Shown in pieces: positions 9,935 to 29,198 of a stretch of DNA of 64,000 nucleotides (the first letter of the stretch is position 1; every line of letters begins with the position of its first letter). A program made the translations under genes and the position numbers. Under the pieces are notes generated by a model that made no database searches, was not told the DNA's origin, and saw only the letters and a program-made list of their open reading frames with translations. The stretch is from NCBI GenBank assembly GCA_017421025.1, contig JAFQME010000031.1:62001-126000 (forward strand), written 5' to 3'. The stretch is from Oscillospiraceae bacterium (GTDB lineage Bacteria > Bacillota > Clostridia > Oscillospirales > JAAYXM01).

Positions 9935-10768
9935 ATGAAAAAGTCTCGTATTCTCGCATTGCTCCTCGCACTTTGCCTTGTGACCACCGCATTTGCTGTA
10001 CTTGCAGGACCCACTACCGAGGACGGCGCTCAAGTCCGTACCGAAGGTGCTCAGGGCTTGCGCTTCATCTCGTATCTCCGTAATGTCGAACTTGCATCCT
10101 GCACCGAGTACGGCACCATCCTGGTCCCGACCGCAGGCGTCTCCAGTGCAGATGAGTTTGTCATCGGCGCAACTCTGGGCGGCTATGATGTCGCAAAAGT
10201 CCCGGCACTGATCAACTACAAGAAGGATGCAGACAATACTTACTTCACCGCAGTTATCACCGATATCGATCCGGATAACTACACCCGTGAATACTCCGCT
10301 CGTGCATATGCTGTGATGGGCGAAGACACCCTCTACTCCGACGTCACCACTTCCCGTGATGTTTACACCGTTGCAAAGGCAGCGCTTGCTGACACTTCCG
10401 CAGATCTGACCGCAGATGCACAGGCGGTTCTGCAGAAAGTTGTTGACTATGTTGAGGGCTACACTGTTGCGGTCAACTTCACCAAGCCGGTCGAAGACGC
10501 ACAGGTTCCGCTCACCATCGAAGTTGATGGCTATGACGCAACCATCTCCTGGACCCGTACCGGCGGTTATGCTCATACCGGTAAGTTCGCTTCCGGTACC
10601 GACTACACCTGTACCGTTACTTTGACCTCGACCGAGAAGATCAGCCCGAAGGCAAAGATCTCCATCAACGGCAAAACCTATACCACCACCCGTTCTGCAG
10701 ACGGCAAGACCATCTCCGCAAAGCGCACCTACGAATTCAAGGATTCGGGTTACTCGGGCATTTATTAA
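9935..10768 (+). CDS. Small secreted protein: GAQ(V/I)R-QGLRFIS domain plus C-terminal GYSGIY tail
   Basis: This 277-residue exported protein has a signal peptide (residues 1-24, cleavage near VLAG) followed directly by a domain of about 130 residues, DGAQVRTEGAQGLRFIS ... ARAYAVMG ... SDVTTSRDVYTVAKAAL. The same domain forms the C-terminus of the three giant proteins downstream. A beta-rich module follows (VAVNFTKPVEDAQVPLTIEVDGYDATISW), and the protein ends KDSGYSGIY, close to the GWTGIY end of two proteins 14 kb downstream. No enzyme motif is seen. AAGGAGG lies 8 bases before the ATG and a strong terminator ends the transcript. Related GASIR/GIRF-type domains are known to me from other clostridial surface proteins, without a defined role. 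Surface location is the safest inference. Confidence 0.7.
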   Translation: MKKSRILALLLALCLVTTAFAVLAGPTTEDGAQVRTEGAQGLRFISYLRNVELASCTEYGTILVPTAGVSSADEFVIGATLGGYDVAKVPALINYKKDADNTYFTAVITDIDPDNYTREYSARAYAVMGEDTLYSDVTTSRDVYTVAKAALADTSADLTADAQAVLQKVVDYVEGYTVAVNFTKPVEDAQVPLTIEVDGYDATISWTRTGGYAHTGKFASGTDYTCTVTLTSTEKISPKAKISINGKTYTTTRSADGKTISAKRTYEFKDSGYSGIY

Positions 10769-10815: not shown

Positions 10816-10842
10816 CGATATTCTCCATTCACCAAAGAAATT

Positions 10843-10929: not shown

Positions 10930-10976
10930 GCCTTTGAAAACCATGAATTTTTATGAAAAAATTTGTGCAATAAGTC

Positions 10977-11005
10977 TTTACTTTTTCAGGCATTTCTGCT
11001 AATAT
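10977..11005 (+). promoter_or_regulatory. Promoter for giant secreted protein 1
   Basis: TTTACT (10977-10982), a 17-base spacer ending TGC (extended -10), and TAATAT (11000-11005). The predicted start near 11012 leaves an mRNA leader of about 146 bases. Confidence 0.7.
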
Positions 11006-11011
11006 TTATAG

Positions 11012-11150
11012 TAACTTGATTTATGCATTTGCACGGTGGATGCCGAGGTGATTTCACCGGGCAAGTGCATAAGTCACTCAGCCTCGCGGGGCGGGGGTCC
11101 CGCAAAAACAACAAACGGTGCTCTCCGCACCAAAAAAATTTTTAGGAGGA
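11012..11150 (+). promoter_or_regulatory. Structured 5' leader of giant gene 1
   Basis: The leader can fold into a closed element: a 12-base-pair stem (11021-11032 with 11061-11072, one G-U) encloses two small hairpins (CGG/CCG at 11034-11045 and GGTG/CACC at 11047-11058), a three-way junction. Two more hairpins follow: GCGGG/CCCGC (11086-11103) and GGTGC/GCACC (11117-11131), then an A7T5 tract and AGGAGG 8 bases before the ATG. There is no terminator before the ATG. I do not recognise it as a known riboswitch class; it may stabilise or control translation of an abundant mRNA. Confidence 0.5.
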
Positions 11151-14100: not shown

Positions 14101-14448
14101 ATCCCGACCGCTGACCTCGAAGTGGCATCTGATCTCACCATCGGCTACTCCGCAAACGGTCATGACGCTCTGAAGGTTCCGGCAGCTAAGTACTACTCTG
14201 AAGACGACAACAAGATCGAATTCACCGCTGTTATCACCGACATCGCTGCTGCAAACTATGGCCGTGCAATCTCCGCACGTGCATACGCAATCGTAACCGA
14301 CGTTTACGGCACCGACCACATCATCTACGGTGAAGCTGTCACCAGCCGCTCCGTCCTCCAGGTTGCACAGAACGGTCTCCTCGACCCGAATGCAACCGAT
14401 GAAGAGAAGGTAATCTTCCAGCAGATCGTTGATGCTGCTAACGCTTAA
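11158..14448 (+). CDS. Giant secreted repeat protein 1 (beta-sandwich modules plus GAQIR-QGLRFIS C-terminal domain)
   Basis: The 1096-residue product has a signal peptide (MKHQLTRKRIVSILLAVCMLVSMLSVGMAGA) and then several beta-rich modules. One type starts YYRYFIPAL and ends with LEAGEYIVT plus an IYGGNLELWG strand; another carries GEWLWTTSAQAYGAYF, VDIYVPVSGNYTITS, DYYLAPVGTADP and IEAGEYML. An Ig-like region around LSHTGATDKIMANVGTYPITLKANI lies between them. The last about 150 residues (GAQIRTTGKQGLRFISS ... ARAYAIV ... YGEAVTSRSVLQVAQ) are the domain shared with three other proteins here. The aromatic, carbohydrate-binding-module-like pattern suggests glycan or surface binding, but no catalytic residues are evident. 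Codon choice is strongly biased (AAG, GGC, ACC, GAA), like the hydrogenase genes, pointing to high expression. Confidence 0.75.
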   Translation: MKHQLTRKRIVSILLAVCMLVSMLSVGMAGALDVSEGSAYAEVNGGNAYYRYFIPALYQSQWYSNGADNTAIDAKTYNWTVFKNLWNATIGHSTNQASKLNGIASGGTSTHYGTDQMTDAFYLHQYDSNGTVIGFGKYYGVAGNSSVRMTIRVPSSDTYTLKANMYYGLGAQADVVDYWVAPDDAEDPMADDYYVGQLTGIKNGGTLDLTKFGEVGSVDLEAGEYIVTQQVNGSGAIYGGNLELWGSMAPTIVDLTADATAMNEDGYLEVPAGDEEGCWISITAEDRDFGELDLIEMDAPTYARVDEYSDMITAFYEDGMVNIKASYVGENPETSATLYLEVGGAATWVEIPVKVVQGAESIISLSHTGATDKIMANVGTYPITLKANIDGVDTAIGEEDEVSVEIVDADGNATDAVTATVNGANVSFKATEAGSYTALVSATVAGVSTKAAYEIPLTVTGFGLSYNFMKIGAKVTTNSAGWVMKEFIDSYADTWTGGSTDINTDVKSDGWKIGAKGGSGEWLWTTSAQAYGAYFAFAEAGSWNSVDIYVPVSGNYTITSNHTAWAAGDLVDYYLAPVGTADPIKDEYKLNAEPINHNSSSIGDAPTAVGTTDIEAGEYMLVIKSLDTAAGGGVFIKGVDLALNGEATGSKVWIDEANKFVQYSLSYPTNWTWVIKALPTFLAENVKFTWSSSNNNISQVNPNTSISHKHDGAAVMTITGSDGSTYSFPFVVGAADIEYKFLDAAVAAYKAAAGNTYLDQHGYADGTYETAEGAGFGAWFIKGGNSDYANANTGDNGYYGCFWATSVKDNGVTTGFGKTEDAYTQFQIRVDEAGKYQVVSEIDCNSVGWAPHSIYIAPVDAENAMADEYKLIDIYGTRMSGKKQTTTPLGEVELDAGEYLLTYKKLPSVNRSTAPTVAPNGLDYLNVSNVRFYKTDKLPAVALDTVDGAQIRTTGKQGLRFISSIAKSGDWAYVKEVGTVLIPTADLEVASDLTIGYSANGHDALKVPAAKYYSEDDNKIEFTAVITDIAAANYGRAISARAYAIVTDVYGTDHIIYGEAVTSRSVLQVAQNGLLDPNATDEEKVIFQQIVDAANA

Positions 14449-14484: not shown

Positions 14485-14592
14485 ATGAAAAACATTTACG
14501 AAGCACCCGAACTCAACATCGATCGTTTCTTGACCGACGATGTGATGACCGCTTCTTTCGGTGACAACGACGTCTCCGATCCGTGGGCATAA
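14485..14592 (+). CDS. 35-residue peptide with DNDVSDPWA C-terminus (candidate modified-peptide precursor)
   Basis: A short frame follows giant gene 1 by 36 bases, with AAAGGA 11 bases before the ATG and a strong terminator 15 bases after its stop, so it is the last gene of that transcript. The peptide starts MKNIYEAPELNIDRFL, continues TDDVMTASFG and ends DNDVSDPWA. It has no signal peptide. Its last ten residues, GDNDVSDPWA, match GDNDVADPWG and GDNDASDPWG in the SLH protein at 24561-25598. The layout, a leader-like YxxPxLxIxxF segment followed by DDVxTAS and a short acidic, aromatic end, looks like the precursors of ribosomally made modified peptides. A PqqD-like protein lies 12 kb downstream. 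Function is not known. Confidence 0.65.
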   Translation: MKNIYEAPELNIDRFLTDDVMTASFGDNDVSDPWA

Positions 14593-14606: not shown

Positions 14607-14645
14607 AAAAGGGCGAACCCGTTTGGGTTCGCCCTTTTTCTTTTT
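14607..14645 (+). terminator. Rho-independent terminator
   Basis: GGGCGAACCC-GTTT-GGGTTCGCCC (14611-14634) followed by a T-rich run ends the giant gene 1/peptide transcript. Confidence 0.95.
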
Positions 14646-15364: not shown

Positions 15365-18300
15365 ATGAAACGCATCTTTTCGCTTTTCCTTGTGCTGTGC
15401 ATGGTGGTAACACTCTTGCCGGCAGGCAGCGTGTTTACCGCATCTGCGGCGGCAGGCGGAGGGGATTTGTCCTTTGACTTGCTTTCTGACTTTACGCAGT
15501 ATGCAACAGCGAACAACATTGTTGCAGTCGATGGCAGCAACATTGCAAATGCGCCTACCATCAAGAGCTACCGTCTTGCACCGACTTACGGTTGGAGTGC
15601 GGGTAACCTCATTCGCAATTCTGCAAACGACTGGCTTTGGACTCAGTCTGCATCCACGCGCGGGCTCTTCTTTAAGAGCGATGTTGCTACAAATTCGTAT
15701 AACTCCATTGCGGTTGACATTACCGCTGCGGGCGCTTACCGAATGGATGTCAATGCCATTGCCTGGTCCGGCGGCGGAAAACTTGTGATGTATCTTGTTC
15801 CGGTTACTTCCGGCACCATGAACACCACCATCGAGCAGGTGTTAAACGGCGCATATGCAGCAAAATCTAATGTGTTTGAGCTGTATAACAGTGTAGAGGT
15901 CGAACGCACAGGTTCGATTCCGTATGTCGAACTTGCGGCAGGCACCTATCAGGTTGTGTTCTATCAGACCGCTCCGTGTACTTCCGGTGCGGCTATGCCG
16001 GGCTACTTTATCAAGAACATCAACTTTACTTCGGTTACCCCGATTACCGGTGTGACCATTTCCAATCCGAGCGCAAAGACCACACTTGTGACGGGTGAGT
16101 CCATTCAGCTTTCGGCAAGTGTTACCCCGAATATTGCCGATTATCAGAACGTCACCTGGATTTCCTCTAACCCGCATATTGCATCGGTTGATGCAAACGG
16201 TAAGGTGACTGCAACCGGTCTTGGTTCTGTCATCATTACCGCTCAGTCTGCATCTCCTTCGAAGTCTGCTTCCATCACAATCAATGCGCACGCAAACAGC
16301 ACGATCTATTCGTACAAGACTGTCATGGAAGGCATTAAAGGCAACAGTGTTGGTTCTGTTACCGGTGCGGATAACGTCAACGGGAATGCGTTTGTCTATA
16401 TTCGAGATTATGCAACCGCTACTTGGCCCCATAACTGGCAGGCAGGCGGCGTAAAGAGCCATTCCAATAACCAGGGTGAGTGGATCTGGACCTCTTCAGC
16501 ACGTATTTACGGCATCTATTTTGCTGCAATGAGTGAGAATGCATACAACTCAATTGATATTTTGGTGCCGCAGAGCGGTTATTATAAAGTTATTTCCCAC
16601 CACACAAAGTGGTCCGCAGGCGGCAATGTGAAGATGTATCTTGCACCGAAGAGCGCCGACTACGATACTGTGATTGCAAATGCAGTGGCAGAGTCTGAGC
16701 CGATCAGCCATTTTGGCCAACTGACTGCAGAGGAAACCGCAAACGGTACCGAAGTGGTTGTAGATGACTATGTCTACCTCACCGCAGGAAATCACACGGT
16801 TTTGTACAGTCAGGTGGATGACGAGAATGCAACTGACACCGGAAAGGGTTACTTTGTGCGTGGCTTGCATCTCGAGCGTTATCCGGATGTTACAGGTGTG
16901 GAATTTGCATGGGAGTCGTTGAATCTCGCATTAGGTGAGACCCGTGAGCTCATCAGCGAGGTTTACCCGGTCGGTGTTTTACAGGATGTGGAATACTCTT
17001 CGGCGGACCCCTCGGTGGTCGAAGTTACCGATGACGGCAAGATGATTGCAAAGAAGCACGGTGTCACCACCATCACTGCAACTTCGGTTGCGGATAGAAC
17101 GAAGAAAAAGACCATCACGGTCACGGTTGGTGCAAAATCGGTTTACTACGATTATCGAACCAAAAACTCCAAAACTACCTTGGATGTGGATGGTTGGGAA
17201 ATCAACCATGACGTGGTTCATGCAAAAGCGGGCTTTGAATGGGTTGAGACCTCTCGGTTGTCAGAGACTTACGGCTTGTTCTTCGGTAATGTTTTCGGAT
17301 ACGAGGACGCAAGCGACGGTGCCTATGTTTCCGTGAACGTCCGTGTCCCGGTAGACGGGATTTATCAGGTGTCCTCTGTGTATCCGATTTGGCAGCACGG
17401 CGGTATCATGGATGTTTACATTGTGGAAGCATGGCAGGCGGAAGACTTCCTGACCGAAGGGACCAAGCTGAATTTGGATGCTGTTGAGACCCGTAATGAC
17501 CCGAATGACAAGAGTAATGTCAAGACAGTGGAAACCCTGCATGAAATCGAAGTTGCTCTTGATGCAGACACCGAGTACACAATTGTTTATGTCGCAAAAA
17601 CCATTCGTCAAGGGTTCTATCTCCTTGGTACCCGCTTGACCGAACTGAATTGCGGTTATCGCTTTGTGGAGGCTGCCCCGTCGCTTTCCTCCGGTGTAAG
17701 CGCAGATGTAAAAGCACAACTTTTATGGTCAGCAGAAAAAGGCGTTATGACCAGTCAAATGCTGTGGAAATGGACTCCGTCTTCCTCTTTTGCAGGACTG
17801 TATCTTGGCGGGCAGTATGGCGGTCCGGTCAGCGGAACTGCATCAAACGGTGATTATGCAGGCATCAATGTGGAAATTCCGTTTGCGGGCTGGTATGAGA
17901 TTGGAGTAGATTACTACGCATTCCAGACCGGCGGTAGCATGAACTTGTATGCACTGACCTGGGAGGCGTCTACAAAACCGAATTACAAAGATAATTCCAC
18001 CCTGCTCAACAACGAGCCAATCAATACACAAGGCGCACTCGGCGAAGTCCACGTAAATTTGGACAACAAGTATTACTTTGCAGCGCCCGGCAAATATACC
18101 ATTGCGGTAGAACTTGCAGACGTACAAGACGGTGTTTACCTTTGTGGAGTAGACTTTACTCCGGTTTTGTATGTGGATGAAGTAATCATCGATGAAGAAG
18201 AAACTGTGATTTTGGAGGACGAGGCGGAACAGTATGATGTCTCCGCTACAGTTCGTTCCGATGTTGCCAAGAATCCGGAAATCAACTGGAGTTCTTCTGA

Positions 18301-19513
18301 CGAGACGGTTGCAACTGTGGAAAACGGTACCATTTCCTTCTTGAAGAACGGCCATGTCGCAATCACCGCAGAGGCTGCGGATGGCTCGGGGATCAAGAAA
18401 GTGATCCACTTCCTGCGCGGATACGGCATTACCTACAATTACAACTTCCGAGAAAGCTTAAAGCCGATTTACGATGCTTATGGAAAACAGACCACACTGA
18501 ATGCAATTTACACTCCTACGGAGGATGACCTCTACGCAGCAGAAGCAAACGCATTTGCTGAGGGGTATGAGGCTTCGGTTGCAGCAGGCTCGGCTCCATG
18601 GATGTATGCGGGCGGTACAAAGAAGATCAGCTACTCAATTTCTACTTCGAGCGGCTATGGTCTGTTTGTTGACTACGGTTCCCCGGGAGATTATGCACAG
18701 CTGAAACTCCGCGTGGATGAAAATGGCAGATACCACATGGTCTTCAATTTTGACCGTTGGAAAACATCTTCGGGTGCGTTTGATCTCTTCCTGGCACCAA
18801 TCAATGCGACGAATCCAACTGCTGACAGATGGAAGATTCATTCCTACACTCCGGAGAAGAACAATGAAGAACTGCGAAACGAAGTGTACCTCGGCACACG
18901 TACACTTCCTGAGGGTGAGTATTACTTCACTTTGAAGTACAAGGATCCGTCGGATAACAAACTCATCGGTTTCTCGAATTTCAAACTTCTCAAGTATGAC
19001 AACCTTGGAAAATACACGATTGAGGGTGCGCAGGTCCGTCTTGCGGGCACGAATGCCTTTGGCACTGTGGAAGAACAGGGTCTCCGCTTTATCTCCTGGA
19101 TTTCCAAGGATCTTTATCCGGTAGATTCCGCTAAGGTCAAAGAGTTCGGCACTGTTTTGGTTCCGTCTGCTGTTATTACCAATATCGACGATCTCAAGAT
19201 CGGCGCAGTGCTCAACGGCTATGCGGTTGCAAAAGTTCCGGCGGTCAACCGTTATGTTGACACCGGCGACCATGTCCTCTTCACAGCGGTCGTTACCAGA
19301 CTGAAAGAGGCACATTACAATATGTCGATCACTGCCCGTGCATATGTGATTTATGAAGATGCTGAGGGTGTGGAACATACGATTTACGGTGACACTTATA
19401 CCGAGCGTTCGATTTATGAAGTCGCACAAAACGGTATCAACCGTGGTGGATTAAGTGAGCAAGAAACCGAAGTTTTCCAGACAATTGTGAATACCGTGAA
19501 AAATACAAAGTAA
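15365..19513 (+). CDS. Giant secreted repeat protein 2 (Big_2 Ig-like domains, W-rich modules, GAQVR C-terminal domain)
   Basis: This 1382-residue exported protein starts MKRIFSLFLVLCMVVTLLPAGSVFTASAAA. It contains five related modules marked by DWLWTQSASTRGLFF, EWIWTSSARIYGIYF, EWVETSRLSETYGLFF, LWKWTPSSSFAGLYL and a terminal variant SISTSSGYGLFV, each followed by a strand such as YNSIDILVPQSGYYKVIS and a VxMYLAP/MNLYAL segment. Between modules there are bacterial Ig-like (Big_2) domains, e.g. VTWISSNPHIASVDANGKVTATGLGSVIITA and VEYSSADPSVVEVTDDGKMIAKKHGVTTITA and INWSSSDETVATVENGTISF. The last about 155 residues are the shared domain (GAQVRL ... EQGLRFISW ... ARAYVIYEDAEG ... YTERSIYEVAQNG). 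No cell-wall sorting motif or transmembrane end is visible. Codon bias is weaker than in giant gene 1. Confidence 0.78.
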   Translation: MKRIFSLFLVLCMVVTLLPAGSVFTASAAAGGGDLSFDLLSDFTQYATANNIVAVDGSNIANAPTIKSYRLAPTYGWSAGNLIRNSANDWLWTQSASTRGLFFKSDVATNSYNSIAVDITAAGAYRMDVNAIAWSGGGKLVMYLVPVTSGTMNTTIEQVLNGAYAAKSNVFELYNSVEVERTGSIPYVELAAGTYQVVFYQTAPCTSGAAMPGYFIKNINFTSVTPITGVTISNPSAKTTLVTGESIQLSASVTPNIADYQNVTWISSNPHIASVDANGKVTATGLGSVIITAQSASPSKSASITINAHANSTIYSYKTVMEGIKGNSVGSVTGADNVNGNAFVYIRDYATATWPHNWQAGGVKSHSNNQGEWIWTSSARIYGIYFAAMSENAYNSIDILVPQSGYYKVISHHTKWSAGGNVKMYLAPKSADYDTVIANAVAESEPISHFGQLTAEETANGTEVVVDDYVYLTAGNHTVLYSQVDDENATDTGKGYFVRGLHLERYPDVTGVEFAWESLNLALGETRELISEVYPVGVLQDVEYSSADPSVVEVTDDGKMIAKKHGVTTITATSVADRTKKKTITVTVGAKSVYYDYRTKNSKTTLDVDGWEINHDVVHAKAGFEWVETSRLSETYGLFFGNVFGYEDASDGAYVSVNVRVPVDGIYQVSSVYPIWQHGGIMDVYIVEAWQAEDFLTEGTKLNLDAVETRNDPNDKSNVKTVETLHEIEVALDADTEYTIVYVAKTIRQGFYLLGTRLTELNCGYRFVEAAPSLSSGVSADVKAQLLWSAEKGVMTSQMLWKWTPSSSFAGLYLGGQYGGPVSGTASNGDYAGINVEIPFAGWYEIGVDYYAFQTGGSMNLYALTWEASTKPNYKDNSTLLNNEPINTQGALGEVHVNLDNKYYFAAPGKYTIAVELADVQDGVYLCGVDFTPVLYVDEVIIDEEETVILEDEAEQYDVSATVRSDVAKNPEINWSSSDETVATVENGTISFLKNGHVAITAEAADGSGIKKVIHFLRGYGITYNYNFRESLKPIYDAYGKQTTLNAIYTPTEDDLYAAEANAFAEGYEASVAAGSAPWMYAGGTKKISYSISTSSGYGLFVDYGSPGDYAQLKLRVDENGRYHMVFNFDRWKTSSGAFDLFLAPINATNPTADRWKIHSYTPEKNNEELRNEVYLGTRTLPEGEYYFTLKYKDPSDNKLIGFSNFKLLKYDNLGKYTIEGAQVRLAGTNAFGTVEEQGLRFISWISKDLYPVDSAKVKEFGTVLVPSAVITNIDDLKIGAVLNGYAVAKVPAVNRYVDTGDHVLFTAVVTRLKEAHYNMSITARAYVIYEDAEGVEHTIYGDTYTERSIYEVAQNGINRGGLSEQETEVFQTIVNTVKNTK

Positions 19514-19547
19514 GCAGTTCTTTGCAAAATTAATTGGGTAATATAGT

Positions 19548-19590
19548 GGCAAAAGTTTCCATTTTTTGCATGAAAAATGGAAACTTTGCC
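19548..19590 (+). promoter_or_regulatory. Long hairpin between giant genes 2 and 3
   Basis: GGCAAAAGTTTCCATTTTT pairs with AAAAATGGAAACTTTGCC across a short loop, one bulged A. There is no following T-run, so it is not a classic terminator; it could be an mRNA processing or stability element that separates the two coding segments. No promoter is obvious between the two genes. Confidence 0.5.
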
Positions 19591-19625
19591 TGCTTTGAGC
19601 CGAAATACAACAGGAGGAAATCCTT

Positions 19626-22600
19626 ATGAAAAAGAGACAACTTCGCATCTGTTCGTTCTTTCTTGCCGTTTGTATGTTGGTTTGTCTGCTGCCGACAGCC
19701 GGGGCGATTGATTCCTCGCTGAATGACGGAAAGGCAATTTATCGCTACAATCAGCACCTGCTCGCAATTAAGTCGGCAGGAAGCAGCAGTATTGTTCAAG
19801 ATCTGCGTGATTTTGACACGATTTGGAGTACTGCAATGGGTCACGCAGAGTACAAACCGTATATCATCGACGGTAACGGCGGCGCCGGCGCTTTGTGGGT
19901 CGGTCCGTATGAAACCGACGAAACAAAGGACTCCTATTCTGCGAAGGCTGAGGACCTTGCAACCGACCCGTATGCCATCATTGGCACCAACACCACGGTT
20001 GTGGCGGGTGCAGGCTACGGTGTTGCAGCGGTTGCAGGTTCGGGCAGAACGTGGTATTCCATGAAGATTTTGGTCCCGACTGCGGGAACTTACACCTTTG
20101 AGAGCCAGTTTTACTCCATTGCCGATCACGCAACTTCAGTCCAGGTTTACCTCGCAAAGGCTGAGGATTACAATGCACAAAACCCGATCGATGCAGACAA
20201 TCTGATCGGGACATATGCCCGTACCAACCGAATCCCGTCCGGTGCAGGCAGTGCGTATAACGCCCTGTTCACCTTGCCGAGTGCGGTTGCTTTGGATGCG
20301 GGCGAATATGTCGTCACCTACTGCGGTGATGCTGAAAGACCGGTCTATGGCGGTACCTTGACCCTGTATGGAAACGCAGCGGCGAGCCCGATTTCTCTGA
20401 ATGCAGAGACGGAAGCAGATGTTTTGGATCTTGCTGTGGGCGAGAGTTGCGAAGTTGCAATTGCTGCGACTGACGCAAACGGGGATGCGATCGATTTAAG
20501 TGCGGCAAACATCACCGAAATGCGTGTGGATAAAACTTCCGACTTCATGAACGCCACTTATGCGGACGGAAAACTCCGGATCACTGCAAACCGGGGCGGC
20601 TACGGCACAGCGACCCTGTATCTGGTTTTGGACGGAAGTGCTGCGGCATGGGTGGATGTTTCGGTGCGTTGCCGTGAAGAAAATACCGGTTACTACCGCT
20701 ACAACCAGCACAATCTGGTCACTTACTACAATGTTTTGAATGCTTCTCAGACCAAGTACCTCTCCCTTGCGGATTTGGGCAATATTTGGAAGATGACCAA
20801 GGGGCACTCCACTTACGCCCCGCATTGGGACGGTGCGGAATATCCGTGGGTCGGTCCGTATGAGACCGAGTCTGACGGCAACAACATGTCAGCGGTTGCG
20901 GCAGACATTGCCTCCGAACCGTATGCCATTTTGGGCACCAACTCCGCAATCGGATTCCTCCCGGGTCAGCCGATCTCGGTGACGGGAAAAGCCGGCGGTG
21001 CCTGGTATTCCATGAAGATCTCGGTGCCGACTGCAGGCGCATTTGATGTGGAATCGTATTTCTATGGCGCATCGTCTTTGGCGAGTGCGATTGACTGTTA
21101 TATCATAAAGGCAAGTGAATACAAAGCGACTCAGCCCATTCAGCCCACCGGTTATGTAGGCCGTTTCAAAAAGACCAATATGGTCCCTTCCGGTGCGGCA
21201 AGTGCTTATAAAGGACTGTTCCGATTGGATCGTCCTGTGAATCTGGAAGCGGGCGAGTATGTAGTCACCTATCATGCGGTGGATGCAAAACCCTTCTACG
21301 GCGGATCAATGACGTTGTATCAGTATTCCGCAGGCAACAAAGTGACTTTGAAAGTGGATGCCTCCAAACTCAATGCATCGGGTGCTTTGGAACTGGTCCC
21401 GGGTGCAAGCGCTGTCCTTGATGTGACCGCTGTGGATGCAAACGGAGAGACCGTTGATCTTTCCACCGCTTCTTTGAGTGACGTGCGTGTGGATTACAGC
21501 GCATCGGGTGCGGTCGGAACGTATCAGAACGGTAAAATCACCGTTCGAACTTCTGCAGGAAGTGCGGCGGTTGGAAGCAAGACCTCACTCACCCTTTATA
21601 TGGTAATTGACAAGGAAACCTCCGCTTGGGTGGAAATTCCGATCACCTTTGTTGCGGCATCCGGGAAGACTTTAACCATGGGTCATATCGGTGCAACCAC
21701 CGAACTTCCCACCGGCTTTGGCTGCAGCGTAGAACTCACCGCAGCGGTTGACGGGGTAGATGTGGCGATTGATGAATACGACGTGATTGATGTGGCTGCA
21801 CTGGATGCAAACCGTCAGCCGACAAGCGCAATCACAGTCAGTGTGAAAGACGGAATCGTTTCTGCAAAGACCAACACTTCGGGCGACTATATCGTTTTGG
21901 TCACTGCGACCATTGACGGAATTTTGACCTCGTATGAGATGCTGTTCCGCTTCACTCCGCTGACACATTACTACGATTATATGAAGATGGCGAGCTTCTC
22001 CACCCATTCGGTTGGTTGGCAGATAGAGCAGTTCATTGACGACTATGCCGATACCTGGACGGGCGGCTCTACTTCTATTACTGCGACCCCGAGTGCTCCG
22101 TGGAAACCCGATATGCGTGAAAACTGCGGACCGTGGCTGATGACCACCTCTGCAAAGAGCATCGGTGCATATTTCCTGGAAACCGCACCGGGCGGCTGGA
22201 CTCGTGTGAAGTTCTACCTGCCGGTCTCGGGTAATTACACGGTTACCACCGTCTTTACCAAATGGGCTTCGGGCGGCTTGATGGATTACTATCTCGCTCC
22301 TGCAGATGTCGCAGACCCGATGTCTGAAGATTACTTGATGAATTCATCCCCGATCAGCCACAACGGCACCGGCGAAGCCTCCGAGCGCCTTGCAATCCGC
22401 CAGTTTGAAGCGGGTGAGTATGTCATCACCTACAAGAGTGTGGGCGATACCGTGTCGGGCGGATTCTTTATCAAGGGTCTGCGCTTCACGCTCAACAGCA
22501 ACCCGGGTACCTCCCGTGCATACATCGATCTGGATGCCGGCGTTAAGGTGCTGGGTGTGGATGAAACCGCAACCGTGAACGCACAGGTGCTCCCGGGTTA

Positions 22601-23840
22601 CTTGGCACAGGAAATTTCCTGGTCGAGTGAGGATGAGAGCATTGCAACCGTGAAAGACGGTGTGATTACCGGTAAGGCAAACGGCATTACTTCTGTGACC
22701 GCAACCCTTCCGGACGGTGCAAGACGCAGCATCGAAGTGGTGGTCGGCGCACCGACTTACGAGTATAAGATTTGGGATTGCAGTAATGCGGAGTATCTTG
22801 CAGCAAACAGAAACAACGTTTCAATGCATTTGACCAAGTACTACAATCAGGGATATAATGCAGCGTATGCGTCCGGTCTTGCGACCGACCCGTGGTTCTT
22901 CAAAGCAAGCGACACCGGTGCGGGCGCTCCGTATCTGTATTTCAACTGGAACGCAAGCATCAAGAACCTCGGACTCCTTGCAGCGTATGGCTCGGAGGAT
23001 ACCGGCTATACCAGAATCCAGTTGAGAATCAGCGAGGACGGTGTGTACCGTCTGCTTTCGGCACAGGATATGAGTGCACAATATGGCGCCATTTCCCCGA
23101 GTGTCATCCATTTGGCACCGATTGGTGCAGCAAATCCCACAGCAGACGAGTTCCTGGTTGAGAGAATCGAGGGCACTCGTGCTCCGCTTGGCGGCAAATC
23201 CAACACCCCGATTCTGTCGGATGAAATCTCTCTGAAGGCTGGCGAGTATTACCTCACCGTGACCAAGCTCCCGTCCACCCGCCGTGTGTTTATGGCAGAC
23301 GGAAGCAAGGGCTTGGATTTCCTCAGCCACTACAATTACAGCCTCTATAAAACAGAGAATTTGACCGACGTTTCGGTCAGCACCATCAACGGTGCACAGA
23401 TGAGAAACACCGGTGCACAAGGCCTCCGCTTCATCTCCTCCATCGATAAAAACGCTGTGGATTGGGATCGTGTGGTGGAATTCGGCACCGTGTTGATTCC
23501 GACTGCTGATCTAAATACCAAGCGTGATCTGGTCATTGGGGCAAAGTACAACGGACACTCTGTGGCAAAGGTCCCGGCTGTCAACTACTATGCAGAGACC
23601 GACGATACCATCACCTTTACCGCAGTGCTCACCAACATCGCTGACACCGCACTTTCCCGCTCAATTACCGTGCGTGCATATGCGATTTTGGATGACGGCA
23701 GTGTGGTTTACGGCGACACCTTTGCAAGCCGCTCCATCTACGAGATTGCCACCCGAATTGTGGCAGACCCAAATGCGAGCGAAACCGACCGAGCAGCGGC
23801 GGAAGTCATTGTTGCCAAGGTGGAAGGCAGCGCACAATAA
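19626..23840 (+). CDS. Giant secreted repeat protein 3 (paralogue of giant protein 1)
   Basis: The 1404-residue product has a signal peptide (MKKRQLRICSFFLAVCMLVCLLPTAGA) and the same module types as giant protein 1, but with the first module duplicated: IYRYNQHLLAIK...WSTAMGHAEYKPYIIDG...WVGPYETDETKD and YYRYNQHNLVTYYN...WKMTKGHSTYAPHWDG...WVGPYETESDGN, each ending AGEYVVTY and YGG(T/S)(L/M)TLY. Then follow LSHTGAT-like Ig segment (LTMGHIGATTELPTG), the GPWLMTTSAKSIGAYF module with DYYLAPADVADP, a Big_2 domain (ISWSSEDESIATVKDGVITGKANGITSVTA), a further W/Y-rich module, and the shared C-terminal domain GAQMRNTGAQGLRFISS...VRAYAILDDGSVVYGDTFASRSIYEIA. Function not known; glycan or surface binding is an inference from the aromatic beta modules. 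Confidence 0.77.
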   Translation: MKKRQLRICSFFLAVCMLVCLLPTAGAIDSSLNDGKAIYRYNQHLLAIKSAGSSSIVQDLRDFDTIWSTAMGHAEYKPYIIDGNGGAGALWVGPYETDETKDSYSAKAEDLATDPYAIIGTNTTVVAGAGYGVAAVAGSGRTWYSMKILVPTAGTYTFESQFYSIADHATSVQVYLAKAEDYNAQNPIDADNLIGTYARTNRIPSGAGSAYNALFTLPSAVALDAGEYVVTYCGDAERPVYGGTLTLYGNAAASPISLNAETEADVLDLAVGESCEVAIAATDANGDAIDLSAANITEMRVDKTSDFMNATYADGKLRITANRGGYGTATLYLVLDGSAAAWVDVSVRCREENTGYYRYNQHNLVTYYNVLNASQTKYLSLADLGNIWKMTKGHSTYAPHWDGAEYPWVGPYETESDGNNMSAVAADIASEPYAILGTNSAIGFLPGQPISVTGKAGGAWYSMKISVPTAGAFDVESYFYGASSLASAIDCYIIKASEYKATQPIQPTGYVGRFKKTNMVPSGAASAYKGLFRLDRPVNLEAGEYVVTYHAVDAKPFYGGSMTLYQYSAGNKVTLKVDASKLNASGALELVPGASAVLDVTAVDANGETVDLSTASLSDVRVDYSASGAVGTYQNGKITVRTSAGSAAVGSKTSLTLYMVIDKETSAWVEIPITFVAASGKTLTMGHIGATTELPTGFGCSVELTAAVDGVDVAIDEYDVIDVAALDANRQPTSAITVSVKDGIVSAKTNTSGDYIVLVTATIDGILTSYEMLFRFTPLTHYYDYMKMASFSTHSVGWQIEQFIDDYADTWTGGSTSITATPSAPWKPDMRENCGPWLMTTSAKSIGAYFLETAPGGWTRVKFYLPVSGNYTVTTVFTKWASGGLMDYYLAPADVADPMSEDYLMNSSPISHNGTGEASERLAIRQFEAGEYVITYKSVGDTVSGGFFIKGLRFTLNSNPGTSRAYIDLDAGVKVLGVDETATVNAQVLPGYLAQEISWSSEDESIATVKDGVITGKANGITSVTATLPDGARRSIEVVVGAPTYEYKIWDCSNAEYLAANRNNVSMHLTKYYNQGYNAAYASGLATDPWFFKASDTGAGAPYLYFNWNASIKNLGLLAAYGSEDTGYTRIQLRISEDGVYRLLSAQDMSAQYGAISPSVIHLAPIGAANPTADEFLVERIEGTRAPLGGKSNTPILSDEISLKAGEYYLTVTKLPSTRRVFMADGSKGLDFLSHYNYSLYKTENLTDVSVSTINGAQMRNTGAQGLRFISSIDKNAVDWDRVVEFGTVLIPTADLNTKRDLVIGAKYNGHSVAKVPAVNYYAETDDTITFTAVLTNIADTALSRSITVRAYAILDDGSVVYGDTFASRSIYEIATRIVADPNASETDRAAAEVIVAKVEGSAQ

Positions 23841-23847: not shown

Positions 23848-23892
23848 TCGGCAGGCAGAACATCGGTTTTGCCTGCCGATGGTTTCTTTTCC
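23848..23892 (+). terminator. Rho-independent terminator
   Basis: TCGGCAGGCA (23848-23857) pairs with TGCCTGCCGA (23870-23879) across a 12-base loop, followed by an interrupted T-run. It ends the giant gene 2/3 transcript. Confidence 0.75.
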
Positions 23893-23979: not shown

Positions 23980-24546
23980 ATGAACAAGAAAACCTGGCTG
24001 ATTATTGCAATCGCTGTGATTTGTCTTGCGGTGCTTGGTGTTACGATTTGGAGTGTCACAAGCGGCGTTAGAAGTACATTGCCGGAAACCGAGAGCGACC
24101 CGCAAACAGAAACCGAGCAGGCACCGGTTGCATCGGAAGATGAAGTCGTGCCCCTTGATCCGGAGACCGGTGCACCGATTGAGCCGGAGGCTTCGGATGT
24201 AGTAAATTCGAATCAGCAAGAAGCTGCAAATGCTTCCAAGGAAGAAACCCCTGCAACGTCTGAGGACGGAAAACCGCAGGACACTTCCAAGGAAGAAACA
24301 AAGCCTAAAACAGAGAACAAGCAGGAAACCTCTAAGGAAGAAAAAACCCCCGATGTTGAGGACAATCTGGTGCAAGACCCGTGGGGTGAGCTGGAAGGGG
24401 AAGATCCAATCGGATCCACTCCGCTCGACGAACTTGAAACCGAGCAGTCGTCTGAAGAAAAGCCGGCTGAAGAGGAGTCCTCCGAAGAGGAACCGAGCAT
24501 GGAAGATTTGGCGACCAGCGACGAAGGCTGGACCGGAATTTATTGA
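23980..24546 (+). CDS. Acidic membrane-anchored protein with DPWG element and GWTGIY C-terminal tail
   Basis: The 188-residue product has an uncleaved-looking N-terminal membrane segment (WLIIAIAVICLAVLGVTIWSV) and then a long, Glu/Ser/Thr/Pro-rich, probably disordered extracellular stretch with ASKEETPA, DTSKEETKP and ETSKEEKTP repeats. EDNLVQDPWGELEGEDP (around residue 130) carries the DPWG element, and the protein ends EPSMEDLATSDEGWTGIY, identical in sequence to the end of the next protein. No folded domain or enzyme motif is visible. AGGAGG stands 7 bases before the ATG. The next gene starts 14 bases after its stop. A spacer that displays its C-terminal tail away from the membrane is the simplest reading. 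Confidence 0.7.
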   Translation: MNKKTWLIIAIAVICLAVLGVTIWSVTSGVRSTLPETESDPQTETEQAPVASEDEVVPLDPETGAPIEPEASDVVNSNQQEAANASKEETPATSEDGKPQDTSKEETKPKTENKQETSKEEKTPDVEDNLVQDPWGELEGEDPIGSTPLDELETEQSSEEKPAEEESSEEEPSMEDLATSDEGWTGIY

Positions 24547-24560
24547 TGGAGGGAAACACC

Positions 24561-25598
24561 ATGAAAAAAACAATTGCAATGATTCTTTGTGTCGCAATGC
24601 TTATCAGCCTCTGCCCGATGGCGATGATGGCAAGCTACAGCGATATGCCGGCAGAAAACCACTGGTCTTATCAGGCGCTCAACGCTGCAGTAGAGCAGGG
24701 CCTGCTTCAAGGCTCCAACGGCAAGCTTTTGCCGAACGACAAGTTGACCCGTGCGCAGATGGCAACCATTTTGGTGCGTGCTTACGGCGCAACCGAAAAA
24801 GCAGAAGAATTCAACTTCTCCGATGTTCCGGCAGGCAGCTGGTTCTATGACAATATGTCCATCGCTGTGAAGGCGGGTTGGTTTAAGGGCGACGGCGGAA
24901 GCACCATGCGTCCGAATGCACCGATCAGCCGTCAGGAAGCATTTGCGGTCCTTGCCCGTGCAATCGGGACCGAAGCAGATGACAGCTTCGTTTTGGCAGA
25001 TAAGTTCACCGATGCGGCAGATGTCGCAACTTGGTTTGTTGTCGAGATCTCCGCTCTGGCAGCCAAAGGCTATGTCAACGGCTCCAACGGTAAGCTGGAC
25101 CCGAAAAACGAAATCACCCGTGCTCAGTTTGCACAGGTCATGTTTAACCTGATCTCGGACGGCGCAATCACTCTCCCAGAAAAGGATGAGGAAAAGCCGA
25201 ACGAAACCGACAAGGACAAAGAAAACAACACCTCGGGCGGCTCTTCCGGCGGATCTTCTTCCGGCGGCGGTAGCTTTGGCGGTGGCGGATCTTCCGGTGG
25301 TGGTTCCTCTTCCGGCAGTGGTTCTTCCGGTGGTTCGACCGGTGGCAGCGGATCTTCCGGTGGTTCTACCGGCGGTAGCGGTTCAATCGGCGGCGGCACC
25401 TCAGGTGGCACCTCCGGCGATAACGACGTTGCAGACCCGTGGGGTGATTTGGGTAACACCGGTGGCACAACAGGCGATGAGACCGGGGATAACGATGCGT
25501 CCGACCCGTGGGGCGACGAGACCGTTGTTCCGGAAGACAAAGAGCCGAGCATGGAAGACTTGGCAACCAGCGACGAAGGCTGGACCGGGATTTACTAA
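24561..25598 (+). CDS. SLH-domain surface protein with Gly/Ser linker, DPWG elements and GWTGIY tail
   Basis: After a signal peptide (MKKTIAMILCVAMLISLCPMAMMA) there are three S-layer-homology repeats: YSDMPAENHWSYQAL...LTRAQMATILVRAYG, FSDVPAGSWFYDNMS...ISRQEAFAVLARAIG and FTDAADVATWFVVEI...ITRAQFAQVMFNLIS. SLH trimers bind pyruvylated secondary cell-wall polysaccharide, so this should be non-covalently surface-bound. A Gly/Ser-rich linker of about 70 residues follows, then GDNDVADPWG, GDNDASDPWG and the tail EPSMEDLATSDEGWTGIY. The start at 24561 has GGAGGG 7 bases upstream; an earlier in-frame ATG at 24543 overlaps the previous stop and has no ribosome site. The 345-residue protein has no other domain, so the tail may be its functional end. 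Confidence 0.85.
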   Translation: MKKTIAMILCVAMLISLCPMAMMASYSDMPAENHWSYQALNAAVEQGLLQGSNGKLLPNDKLTRAQMATILVRAYGATEKAEEFNFSDVPAGSWFYDNMSIAVKAGWFKGDGGSTMRPNAPISRQEAFAVLARAIGTEADDSFVLADKFTDAADVATWFVVEISALAAKGYVNGSNGKLDPKNEITRAQFAQVMFNLISDGAITLPEKDEEKPNETDKDKENNTSGGSSGGSSSGGGSFGGGGSSGGGSSSGSGSSGGSTGGSGSSGGSTGGSGSIGGGTSGGTSGDNDVADPWGDLGNTGGTTGDETGDNDASDPWGDETVVPEDKEPSMEDLATSDEGWTGIY

Positions 25599-25612
25599 AA
25601 ACACACACAACT

Positions 25613-25650
25613 GACAGGGCGAGAAATCTCCCTGTCTGTTTGTGGTTTGT
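25613..25650 (+). terminator. Weak hairpin, possible partial terminator
   Basis: GACAGGG (25613-25619) pairs with CCCTGTC (25630-25636) and a T/G-rich, not pure-T, segment follows. It may lower read-through from the surface-protein genes into the modification genes, setting their expression ratio. Confidence 0.4.
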
Positions 25651-25667
25651 GAGATAAGGAGTTTCCT

Positions 25668-26378
25668 ATGCCGAAGTACAGGATTGCGGAATTGAATGTG
25701 GAAATGGCTCCGAAACATCCCACCCTGCTCCGCCAAGGTGAGCCGTATTTATACGACTTTTCGGGTGAAGCGGATGTGGTGGTGGACTTTTCCGAGGAGT
25801 TTTACGCACAGAAATTAAAAGAGCACCCGGAACTGACTCCGGATTTGTGCGAATATTTGTGGATGGGCTTCGGGTTTTATCGGAAACTGGTGCAGTACGA
25901 TGGGCTGATGCTGCACGCATCTGCGCTTGCGTACCAAGGTCGGGCGTATTTGTTTTCCGCTCCGTGTGGGACCGGAAAATCCACCCACACCTCGCTTTGG
26001 CGCAAGACCTTTGGTGAGGATGTGGTCATCTTAAACGATGATAAGCCCGCACTTCGTCAAATCGAAGGGGTGTACCACGCATTCGGGACCCCGTTTTCCG
26101 GGAAAACCGATCAGAATGTCAACATAGGTGTTCCGCTTGGCGGCATTTGTATTTTAGAGCGCTCGAAAGAAAACTGGATCAAGAGGGTGCAGGGGAAAGA
26201 CGTGATTTTCCCGCTCATGCATCAAACCCTCCGTCCGCCCGATGCGCAAAATATGGACCGTTTGCTTGCAAATTTGGATCAGCTGCTCCGCACCGTCCCC
26301 ATCTATCGGATGGGCTGCAACATCTCCGAGGATGCGGCACGGCTGGCGTGTGAAACCATGCAGGGAGGATTAGAATGA
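25668..26378 (+). CDS. HprK-like P-loop kinase
   Basis: The 236-residue protein has the HPr-kinase/PEP-carboxykinase-like core: LMLHASALAYQGRAYLFSAPCGTGKSTHTSLW with a Walker A CGTGKST, then ILNDDKPALR, and GTPFSGKTDQN. True HprK has an N-terminal domain and the HPr-K signature for HPr Ser46; neither is seen, so HPr is unlikely to be its substrate. Stand-alone kinases of this kind occur in exopolysaccharide loci and in lasso-peptide loci, where they phosphorylate the C-terminal residue of a precursor peptide. Here its stop overlaps the PqqD-like gene (ATGA). AAGGAG lies 6 bases before the ATG. I infer that it acts on a peptide or protein tail presented by that partner. Confidence 0.85.
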   Translation: MPKYRIAELNVEMAPKHPTLLRQGEPYLYDFSGEADVVVDFSEEFYAQKLKEHPELTPDLCEYLWMGFGFYRKLVQYDGLMLHASALAYQGRAYLFSAPCGTGKSTHTSLWRKTFGEDVVILNDDKPALRQIEGVYHAFGTPFSGKTDQNVNIGVPLGGICILERSKENWIKRVQGKDVIFPLMHQTLRPPDAQNMDRLLANLDQLLRTVPIYRMGCNISEDAARLACETMQGGLE

Positions 26379-26641
26379 AACCGAAAGAAGGACTGTTATT
26401 GCGTGAACTGGACGGCACCGCTATTGTAGTTGCGACCGGCGCAGCCATCAGCGAGTTTTCCGGACTCATCACGCTCAATCAAACCGGCACATTCCTTTGG
26501 CGACGCTTGGAACAGGGCGCAACCGAAGAGGAATTGATTGCCGCACTTCTCGCAGAATATGAAATCAGCGAAGAAATTGCACGCAAAGACGTGCAGGCGT
26601 TTGTTGCCCGTGCAAAGGATGCGGGACTTTTAGAAGATTAG
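26375..26641 (+). CDS. PqqD-like peptide-recognition protein (RRE)
   Basis: PqqD-family proteins are small winged-helix chaperones that bind leader peptides and hand them to modifying enzymes. The 88 residues fit the family well: LLRELDGTAIVVA, the hallmark ITLNQTGTFLWRRLEQGATEEELIAALLAEYEI and a C-terminal helix VQAFVARAKDAGLLED. No radical-SAM enzyme, cyclase or peptidase accompanies it, so it does not belong to a PQQ or lasso pathway. Its start overlaps the kinase stop, implying a stoichiometric complex. Candidate ligands are the 35-residue peptide at 14485-14592 and the C-terminal tails of the two surface proteins just upstream; this is inference. Confidence 0.9.
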   Translation: MKPKEGLLLRELDGTAIVVATGAAISEFSGLITLNQTGTFLWRRLEQGATEEELIAALLAEYEISEEIARKDVQAFVARAKDAGLLED

Positions 26642-26652
26642 AGGAAAGATAC

Positions 26653-27369
26653 ATGCACAAGGCAGAGCAAAAAACTCAAACCCTGTCCTTCTGGGCACGT
26701 GTGCTCAGATTTGTGTCAGAGTTTACCGCAAAGCAAATCGGCATCGTTTTGGTGGTCGGTGTGCTTTGTGCTGCCTTGGGATATACTGCAACCATGACCT
26801 TTGCGAAGCCGCTTTATTCTTCCACCGTGACGATTGCGGTGATGAATGAGCGTGGCTCCAAAGTGTCTCATATCCAAAACCTCTCGGTTTGTTATCAGCT
26901 TGCCAAGACCCTTGCTGCGGCAGGGCGGAATCAGGAAGCGGCGGCAAAGACCATTGAACGCATGGAGCTTTCGATGGAGCCGAGAGAACTTCTCTCCAAA
27001 ATCCGTGTGTCCAGAAGGGAAAAGACCATGCTGGTGCGTGTGCGTGCCATGGACACCGATCCGGAACTGGCACAGCAGATTGCAGAGGTTTATACCGAGG
27101 AGATGCTTGAGGTTTTGGGCGAGACTCTGTTTATTTACAACGCACCCCGTCTGCACGGCCCCTCGCTTGCCAAAAGCATCGGCGGACTGCGGCAGAACTC
27201 GTTTGTGTGCGGATTGCTTGGTTGTTTTGCAGCGCTTTGGGTGTTCTACCGCCGTCACCGTCGGGACCGCACCATCAAGGTTGCAAAGGACCTTGCGCCG
27301 TTTGAAAAACCGGTCATCGGTGAGATTACAGTGATTCGTGGCGCCTCACGGCAAGGAGGTGCGGCATGA
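26653..27369 (+). CDS. Wzz/CapA-like membrane protein 1
   Basis: The 238-residue protein has two membrane segments, IGIVLVVGVLCAALGYTATM near residue 40 and FVCGLLGCFAALWVFYR near residue 190, enclosing an extracellular helical domain (LYSSTVTIAVMN...PELAQQIAEVYTEEML). This is the topology of Wzz/CapA chain-length and kinase-adaptor proteins of surface polysaccharide assembly. The cytoplasmic tail (FEKPVIGEITVIRG) lacks a P-loop, so it is not a fused tyrosine kinase. It follows the PqqD-like gene by 11 bases and overlaps the next, related gene by 4 bases. Confidence 0.78.
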   Translation: MHKAEQKTQTLSFWARVLRFVSEFTAKQIGIVLVVGVLCAALGYTATMTFAKPLYSSTVTIAVMNERGSKVSHIQNLSVCYQLAKTLAAAGRNQEAAAKTIERMELSMEPRELLSKIRVSRREKTMLVRVRAMDTDPELAQQIAEVYTEEMLEVLGETLFIYNAPRLHGPSLAKSIGGLRQNSFVCGLLGCFAALWVFYRRHRRDRTIKVAKDLAPFEKPVIGEITVIRGASRQGGAA

Positions 27370-28049
27370 TTGCTCGGAAATTAAAACAACTTCAAGCGAA
27401 ATTGGAGCTTTTGTGGTTCCGCAGATGGCTGATTTTATCAATCACTTTGTTGGGTGCGGTGTTGGGCTTTGCGGTCTCTGCTTTTTTGGTGACACCGCAG
27501 TACACTGCAGAAAATGAGTTGTATTTCAGTGCATATACCGTGAATTATCACAAGACCATCAGTGACCAGCAACTGGAAAACTCCCGTGGTCTTGCAGAAT
27601 CGTATTCGGTCTATATGAAAGAGGCGTTTCTTTTGGAACGTGCCGAGAAAAGCCAGCCGTACACGCTCTCAAAGCACTATACGGCAGGTGAGCTTGGGCG
27701 TGCCATTGACATCCGGGTAGACAGCGATGCGAATGTCATTTTCTTCCGTGTCACCACAGAAAACCCCATGGATTCCAAGTTGATTTGTGATTTTTACAGC
27801 GAATTCTCCATGCGTGAGATTGTGGAACTCACCGGGGTTGGTTCGTATGAAATTTTCAACGAAACCAAACTCCCCGAGAAACCCTCGTTCCCCAACCCGA
27901 TTTTGTTCACTTTGCTCGGGGCGCTCCTTGCGTTTGCGTTGGTAGTGTCCTATGCCCTCAAAGTGCGGCAGAAGATTTATGAGGAAAAAGACATCAAAAC
28001 GCTGATTCCGAAGAGTATTATCGTGGCGTGTGTGCCGGAATTCAAATAA
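27366..28049 (+). CDS. Wzz/CapA-like membrane protein 2
   Basis: This 227-residue protein has the same topology as its neighbour: WLILSITLLGAVLGFAVSAFLV near residue 30, an extracellular domain containing YTAENELYFSAYTVNYHKTISDQQLENSRGLAESYSVYM and ITTENPMDSKLICDFYSEFS-like segments, and a second membrane segment preceded by PEKPSFPNPILFTLLGALLAFALVVSYAL. The Pro-rich motif before the second segment is the hallmark of Wzz/CapA families. No Walker box and no Tyr cluster is present at the C-terminus. Two such adaptors without an adjacent CapB-type tyrosine kinase is unusual; the only kinase in the operon is HprK-like. Confidence 0.8.
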   Translation: MIARKLKQLQAKLELLWFRRWLILSITLLGAVLGFAVSAFLVTPQYTAENELYFSAYTVNYHKTISDQQLENSRGLAESYSVYMKEAFLLERAEKSQPYTLSKHYTAGELGRAIDIRVDSDANVIFFRVTTENPMDSKLICDFYSEFSMREIVELTGVGSYEIFNETKLPEKPSFPNPILFTLLGALLAFALVVSYALKVRQKIYEEKDIKTLIPKSIIVACVPEFK

Positions 28050-28064
28050 GAAAGGGGTTTGTGT

Positions 28065-29198
28065 ATGACACGTGAAGCCGAATATCTCATCCGTTGTGTT
28101 TCCGCCGTCATGCACCAAACATCTGCCCCCACTCCGCCCGAGGGTCTGGATTGGAAAGACCTGACCCGCCTTGCGGCGCAGCAGAGTATGGCGAATCTCT
28201 TGTGCTATGCGGTGGAGGGGCTGGAGCTTCCGCCTGAGGTGGCAGAAAAACTCCGTGAACTGAAAAACAAAGCGATTCTGCGTGAGGCAACGCAGGAAAT
28301 GGAACTCCGTGCTATTCGTGCGGCGTTCAGCGAAAAAGGAATCCGATTCATGCCGCTCAAAGGGGTGTTCCTCAAAACCCTCTACCCACGCCCGGATTTG
28401 CGTGTGATGAGCGATATTGACATTTTGTTTGACGCAAACGACCGTGATGCGGTACAGGAAAGCATGGTTTCTTTGGGGTATACCGTGAAGGACTTTGCCC
28501 TCGGTGTCACCGATGTGTATCAAAAAGCACCGATCATGAACCTGGAGATGCACACCGAATTGGTGGACCATCCCGAGCGTTGGCGCAAGCACTTTGCGCA
28601 TATTTGGGACGCTGCGACTTTGACAGGTACTTGTGAATTCGCCATGTCCCACGAGGATTTTTATGTGTTCTTCTTAGCGCACCTGGTGAAGCACTATGCG
28701 AATTGCGGCACGGGTGTGCGCTCAATTCTGGACCTTTGGGTCTGTCGACATAAAATCCCTTATGATGAGGCGGTCGTATCTGCCCGCTTGGAAGAACTCG
28801 GGATTTTGGAGTTTGTTCGAAACATTGAGGCGCTCGCTGAGGTTTGGTTTGGCGAGGGGACCGCTACTCCGCTTCTTGAGGAGATTGGGGAGTTCATTTT
28901 GTCGGGCGGTACGTTTGGAAACCGTACCACTGCCGCAATGGCACGAGGGACAAAAGGCGACTATTTTCTGCGTCGGTTGTTCCTGCGCCGGGAAGTCATG
29001 GAAGGGGTTTACCCGATTTTGAAAAAGGCGCCGATTCTCCTGCCTGCGTGTTGGGCGCATCGGTTTGTAAAAAAGATTTTTCGTCCGGGACTGATCTCGG
29101 ATGAAATTCATATCCTTGCGACTGCGGACGGGGACAAAGCCGCCGCACTCCAGGCATTCCACAAACGTGCAGGACTTTCGGAAACATATGATGAATAA
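28065..29198 (+). CDS. NTP_transf_5-type nucleotidyltransferase
   Basis: The 377-residue protein carries the core of this nucleotidyltransferase family: FMPLKGVFLKTLYPRPDLRVMSDIDILFD (around residues 98-126, with the metal-binding DID) and LEMHTELVDHP further on, embedded in long helices. Family members are found with HprK-like kinases and PqqD-like proteins in lasso-peptide and exopolysaccharide loci; the nucleotidylated target is generally undefined. I use the ATG at 28065 with AAAGGGG 7 bases upstream; a TTG 6 bases earlier is less likely. It is the last gene before a strong bidirectional terminator, so it completes the 23980-29198 transcription unit. Confidence 0.82.
   Translation: MTREAEYLIRCVSAVMHQTSAPTPPEGLDWKDLTRLAAQQSMANLLCYAVEGLELPPEVAEKLRELKNKAILREATQEMELRAIRAAFSEKGIRFMPLKGVFLKTLYPRPDLRVMSDIDILFDANDRDAVQESMVSLGYTVKDFALGVTDVYQKAPIMNLEMHTELVDHPERWRKHFAHIWDAATLTGTCEFAMSHEDFYVFFLAHLVKHYANCGTGVRSILDLWVCRHKIPYDEAVVSARLEELGILEFVRNIEALAEVWFGEGTATPLLEEIGEFILSGGTFGNRTTAAMARGTKGDYFLRRLFLRREVMEGVYPILKKAPILLPACWAHRFVKKIFRPGLISDEIHILATADGDKAAALQAFHKRAGLSETYDE

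Follow-up and report, generated by a model that had tools for sequence, protein, structure and literature searches.

A candidate peptide-modification locus in an Oscillospiraceae bacterium and a short tag shared by its leader peptides and surface proteins

A 64,000-nucleotide stretch of an Oscillospiraceae genome (assembly GCA_017421025.1, contig JAFQME010000031.1, positions 62,001 to 126,000; hereafter the window) carries a tightly packed operon in which a kinase, a peptide-binding protein and a nucleotidyltransferase, here called the trio, stand together with two Wzz-like proteins, and we describe this operon along with the small peptides and surface proteins that appear to belong with it. 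The source genome, G000, measures 1.5 Mb, and all window features given below lie on the + strand. The operon consists of an HprK-like kinase of the LppK/PadeK kind (25668..26378), a PqqD-type protein (26375..26641), the Wzz-like chain-length proteins A (26653..27369) and B (27366..28049), and an NTP_transf_5 nucleotidyltransferase-like protein of the PsmN/LppN type (28065..29198); the kinase and PqqD genes overlap by 4 bp, 11 bp lead to the first Wzz gene, the two Wzz genes overlap, and 15 bp precede the nucleotidyltransferase gene. Beside them are encoded a membrane-anchored acidic protein (23980..24546) and a protein with three SLH domains and a Gly/Ser linker (24561..25598), whose C-terminal 18 residues are identical, EPSMEDLATSDEGWTGIY, and have no other copy in the genome. 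A terminator-like hairpin (23848..23879) separates this unit of tail and trio genes from upstream genes for giant secreted proteins. The original prediction for this stretch had described the gene order, the packing and the shared tail, all of which we confirm.

Profile searches assign the PqqD-type protein to PqqD (PF05402, E-value 4.5e-19), the nucleotidyltransferase-like protein to NTP_transf_5 (3.2e-46), the chain-length proteins to Wzz (6.4e-11 and 2.5e-4) and the anchor protein to SLH (2.6e-28). The kinase, the sole copy in the genome, has zero matches in Pfam and is recognised by its structure model (predicted local distance difference test, pLDDT, 93), for which HprK/P structures are the best matches, and by its conserved His, Walker-A Lys and Asp-Asp residues. 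The best solved relative of the PqqD-type protein is the lasso B1 recognition protein TbiB1 (E 1.3e-4), and by fold family and likeness to such leader-binding B1 proteins it qualifies as a predicted recognition element (RRE) for ribosomally synthesized and post-translationally modified peptides (RiPPs). In the RiPP clusters of linear polyphosphorylated peptides (LPP) an HprK-like kinase, an RRE, an NTP transferase, a SipW-like peptidase and an MsbA-like exporter act on small leader peptides, and proteins of the NTP_transf_5 type accompany the kinases (PMC13381572); in the pseudomycoidin pathway PsmN, a nucleotidyltransferase by annotation, adds hexoses to phosphoserine (PMC9266682). The first three of the LPP components, with the RRE as a discrete protein, are found in one operon in the window, relatives of the window kinase repeatedly sit in LPP-like clusters, and a sister species retains the whole unit, including the PqqD-type protein (74% identical) and both Wzz proteins. 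These comparisons support the earlier view of the trio as peptide-modifying machinery, and place it with pathways of the paeninodin and LPP kind. Relatives of the kinase are also encoded in two unannotated faecal phage records ('Bacteriophage sp.', MT835590.1 and MT835698.1; 41% and 32% identity), representing either mobile copies or contamination, and dihydrofolate-reductase-like and VanZ-like genes lying 5' of some kinases, named by eye, were dismissed as unrelated neighbours.

Which peptides, then, might the trio act on? A leader profile (a hidden Markov model, HMM), seeded from small open reading frames near relatives' kinases, finds five precursor genes in the source genome, all in a trans arrangement with its one kinase. 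The precursor in the window (MKNIYEAPELNIDRFLTDDVMTASFGDNDVSDPWA, 14485..14592), detected by this HMM and bearing a tag at 14563-14586, lies 37 bp behind the gene of a giant secreted protein and is followed directly by an intrinsic terminator with a 14 bp stem and a T-run (14607..14638); at least four of the five precursor genes sit directly behind giant secreted protein genes. Seventy-seven distinct precursors align on the pattern Y-x-x-P-E-[LI]-x-[IV]-x-x-F-x-x-E-D-[VI]-x-T-x-S, with the key Y, P and S conserved in 93%, 96% and 93%, and no Pfam or NCBIfam model matches those tested. Kinase, precursors and the other elements described below were counted over a comparison set of 117 related genomes: 32 have the kinase, 29 have precursors and 26 have both (Fisher p 3.7e-17), an association to be read with the caution that the profile drew its seeds from kinase neighbourhoods and that kinship makes the genomes non-independent, the precursors being counted genome-wide and across many genera. 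Genes for the kinase, a PqqD-type protein and precursors also occur in a culturable species, Thomasclavelia cocleata DSM 1551 (locus L153). Precursor-like genes with zero kinase matches occur in G069, G077 and G110, which could be incomplete assemblies or have another modifying enzyme. Small peptides are also encoded beside the kinase at loci L039 and L045-L047; those of L045-L047 differ in their C-termini (for example ..GFDSGCWTNLT and ..YVSSTDYGYWTS) and are perhaps further RiPP types. The Y-x-x-P handle recognised by PqqD-type RREs is present in 73 of the 77 leaders and absent from the tail that the SLH protein shares with the acidic protein, which counts against the original proposal that the PqqD-type protein binds that tail. 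Judged from their sequences, the small leader-core peptides are the likely substrates of the trio.

The core of these peptides recurs on surface proteins. This core consists of DNDxx[DW]PW and a small residue. We scanned all 117 genomes for DNDxx[DW]PW with a degenerate DNA pattern, using the reversed pattern as control: 14 sites lie in the source genome, seven in the sister genome and one elsewhere, in a precursor, and the reversed pattern gave 0 in the source and sister genomes. The 14 sites comprise the five precursors, seven giants that end in the tag (for example ..KYGDNDASWPWN) and two copies in the SLH protein (GDNDVADPWG, 25419-25442, and GDNDASDPWG, 25488-25511), and the core is nearly invariant across the five peptides and the seven giants; the acidic membrane protein holds a looser form, DNLVQDPWG (core copy DNLVQDPWGE, 24361-24384). 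The original prediction had named tails occurring widely without the trio as its counter-evidence; for the DND..PW tag, every site lies in a kinase-bearing genome. The surface copies keep the core and lack the phospho-acceptor Ser that is conserved in the leader peptides, which makes the core a likelier candidate for a binding motif than for a modification site and weakens the view that surface tails are the trio's substrate.

Similar sharing, each time with its own sequence, is seen in other genera. At L057 a peptide and an SLH protein both end EGDNGTGWG, and the corresponding pair at L136 ends NQLPLG; at L092 the peptide core GIDFEDL is matched by GIDFNDL in a lipoprotein that ends NWTGLY; and in G065 the peptides end DG[KG]DLFD, GEDLYKK or GDGLWN and around ten giants end [GD]DL[FWY]x. 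Permutation tests of tag sharing gave p 5e-5 within loci and p 1.5e-4 between genomes. Proximity of an SLH gene is in itself no evidence, because SLH genes adjoining the kinase in other lineages (for example L077, L083, L096) encode a different, untagged C-terminus: in one Clostridia group (L077, L081-L083, L088, L095, L096, L099 and L117) a divergently transcribed gene for an SLH protein of ~340 residues adjoins the kinase gene, and the protein has a conserved C-terminus bearing no tag.

The giants share a C-terminal domain of ~150 residues, which we named GCTD. In the window it is found at 13981-14433 in the giant secreted protein directly upstream of the precursor (11158..14448), and at the C-termini of two giant secreted Big_2/Ig-like proteins (15365..19513, GCTD 19007-19492; 19626..23840, GCTD 23373-23816). 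The last of these domains, modelled at pLDDT 91.6, has two extra C-terminal helices; GCTD has zero Pfam matches, and a PDB sequence search gave no convincing match. The domain is present in 11 of the 117 genomes, all 11 of them kinase-positive (p 1.5e-7), and the source genome has 21 copies. Giants exist in three states, with a fused tag, with a leader-core gene 3-40 bp downstream, or with neither, and the first two look like two ways of giving one tag to one protein.

The two remaining LPP components are encoded elsewhere in the genome. On contig C1, a contig other than the window's, a SipW-like peptidase gene (L217, 8968-9372) adjoins an MsbA-type ABC exporter gene (9356-11023), away from any precursor or kinase. 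The former, an S24/S26-like gene of ~150 codons, has no meaningful Pfam match and was recognised by its weak similarity to SpI and by its Ser, His and GD motifs, which are conserved. An SpI-like leader peptidase and an MsbA-like exporter are, in other words, both present, adjacent to each other and off-locus, and the pair appears to be the second half of the candidate pathway, encoded apart from the first.

We favour the interpretation, at a probability of roughly 55%, that a variant RiPP pathway of the LPP type has its cytoplasmic core at this locus, and that its product carries a tag found also on the cell's surface proteins. By analogy with characterised relatives, the PqqD-type protein would bind the Y-x-x-P leader of the small peptides, the HprK-like kinase would phosphorylate the conserved Ser where leader and core meet (..EDV-x-T-x-S..), and the NTP_transf_5 protein would extend the phosphate, perhaps with a sugar; the Wzz pair, which hints at glycan involvement, might tune any attached glycan, and the signal-peptidase-like protease and the MsbA-like exporter would cleave off the leader and carry the core out of the cell. 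The tag may then be a docking motif for one shared putative surface partner, through which free modified peptides, giants and anchors would join one surface layer. We infer from the distribution of the tags that their part in surface assembly is one of docking. The wider proposition, of a novel Bacillota surface-assembly system in which short acidic-aromatic C-terminal tags, on giants with a new FN3-like C-terminal domain and on wall or membrane anchors, are matched by leader-borne, kinase-modified free copies, is more tentative, and we hold it at somewhat less than even odds.

Several observations weigh against this interpretation. The putative docking partner of the tag is its weakest link. 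A fold search with GCTD gave only a weak likeness to FN3/Ig sandwiches, some nine of the 21 proteins with GCTD lack a fused DND tag and have no precursor gene close by (for example those at 15365-23840 in the window), and many relatives have precursors and lack GCTD. The between-genome test of tag sharing is weak outside the window's genus (p 0.038). The protease and exporter are unlinked to the kinase locus, and no copy of the protease turned up in the sister genome, which is 83%-complete.

The tails of the acidic and SLH proteins (24490-24543 and 25542-25595) are explained by a second tag, [WY][ST]G[IL]Y, which also ends some giant-domain proteins. A third tailed protein in the window, secreted and containing GCTD (9935..10768; GCTD match G000:C26:72013-72402), ends ..EFKDSGYSGIY, and its sister-species counterpart ends ..DLKDAGYSGIY; the tails beside the sister trio are ..EDLAVTDEGWSGIY and ..EDLTTSDDGWTGIY. 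The original prediction had missed this protein, together with the precursor at 14485-14592 and the giants, and it had called the two tail proteins otherwise unrelated; the DNA preceding the tails is indeed unrelated, and the proteins have an internal DPWG motif in common as well. A C-terminal search for [WYF][STG]G[ILVM]Y in 31,353 fetched reading frames matched only secreted, anchored or giant-domain proteins, namely the three window proteins, their sister-species counterparts and proteins of L092, L120 and G093; the tails are therefore real recurrent tags rather than a one-locus curiosity, and their link to secreted, anchored proteins, proposed earlier, recurs in other genera. A search with the tail only, which finds the GIY tail in few genomes, would suggest a peculiarity of the genus; the precursors came to light through the neighbourhoods of the kinase. 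The DNA of the two tails differs at 5 of 54 nucleotides, all synonymous, and the preceding 60 nucleotides match at 16 positions, so that the tails are not a fresh DNA duplication and the tail peptide sequence itself appears to be maintained.

Such purely synonymous change would also fit the original proposal that the SLH protein and the acidic protein are themselves modified by the trio, at their C-terminal tails, and linked to a surface glycan by the Wzz pair; the adjacency of trio and tail genes is conserved in the sister species, and the EDLATS-DEGW stretch of the tail loosely resembles the EDVITxS junction of the precursors. We nevertheless consider it unlikely. The Y-x-x-P handle is missing, and the surface copies keep the core without the acceptor Ser; in addition, these tags are found at the ends of Sec-exported giants whose genes lie far from the trio, and dedicated leader peptides exist. 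Slightly less probable again is an ordinary LPP-like cluster making a bacteriocin-like or signalling peptide, in which the surface tags would be immunity, decoy or receptor mimics. Antagonistic RiPPs are hypervariable, and this is hard to square with a core that barely varies within the genome and with surface copies more numerous than the peptides. On the other side, the machinery corresponds to that of LPP, whose clusters are patchy in distribution and horizontally transferred (PMC13381572). The least probable of the alternatives joins the free core peptide covalently to the C-terminus of the giant encoded just upstream, as the fused-tag giants and those with a leader-core gene shortly downstream would allow if they are two states of one arrangement, but no ligase, sortase or transglutaminase-like partner was identified, nor a lasso B2-type protein in G000 or G001, and the giants are Sec-exported whereas the peptides bear a cytoplasmic RiPP leader.

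If the wider proposition of a surface-assembly system is correct, a RiPP pathway of the LPP type would be devoted to building the cell surface and not to a secreted natural product. The biological role of LPP/paeninodin-type phosphopeptides is stated to be unknown (PMC13381572), and the recurrence of cores as surface tags in several genera, with genome-specific sequences, makes a role in surface assembly directly testable. A literature search for this combination, in open-access papers, turned up the LPP paper alone, and the core as a surface tag appears to be undescribed in that literature.

Among known systems, the LPP RiPPs (Popov et al. 2026, PMC13381572) are alike in the kinase, the discrete RRE, the NTP transferase, the SipW-like protease and the MsbA-like exporter, in their Y-x-x-P leaders with a conserved Ser near the leader end, in a link to capsule loci and in having no cyclase. 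They differ in leader spacing and motif: from the LPP motif YxxPxVLxHQxIxFETxxS / Px9Fx[T/A], the element Px9Fx[T/A] is found in 0 of 77 precursors, and T-x-S stands here in place of TxxS. Here, moreover, several precursors lie in trans to one kinase and behind giant surface protein genes, the cores are shared with surface-protein tails, the operon includes a Wzz pair and anchor proteins, and the protease and exporter are unlinked to the kinase locus. We therefore describe the machinery as an LPP variant and do not file it as an LPP member, because Px9Fx[T/A] is missing from all 77.

The paeninodin/pseudomycoidin lasso systems (PadeK/PsmK kinase, PsmN; PMC9266682) share the pair of kinase and NTP transferase and the B1-type recognition protein. 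Membership was rejected: the lasso B2 protease (Transglut_core3) was not found in either of the genomes named above, no Asn-synthetase-like cyclase lies in the locus (a genome-wide cyclase search was not made), the lasso leader motif occurs in 0 of 77 precursors, and the C-terminal Ser targeted by lasso kinases is present in 3 of 77, the window tags ending in A or Y. HPr-rel-A systems (TIGR04352/TIGR04353) likewise combine an HprK-related kinase with a PqqD-related protein, but membership was rejected here too, since both window proteins fall far short of the curated thresholds (19.5 bits against 200 and 21.1 against 35).

The PEP-CTERM/exosortase system (PMC1569441) offers an analogy only: in it, many secreted proteins bear a short signal at the C-terminus, and the occurrence of this signal tracks one trans-acting machine and polysaccharide genes. 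The tag described here differs in having no transmembrane helix or basic cluster, and in existing also as free leader peptides. What the two have in common is the manner of their recognition: our analysis delineates a precursor family and a surface-protein domain, both unannotated, whose occurrence follows that of one kinase, much as PEP-CTERM/exosortase was recognised.

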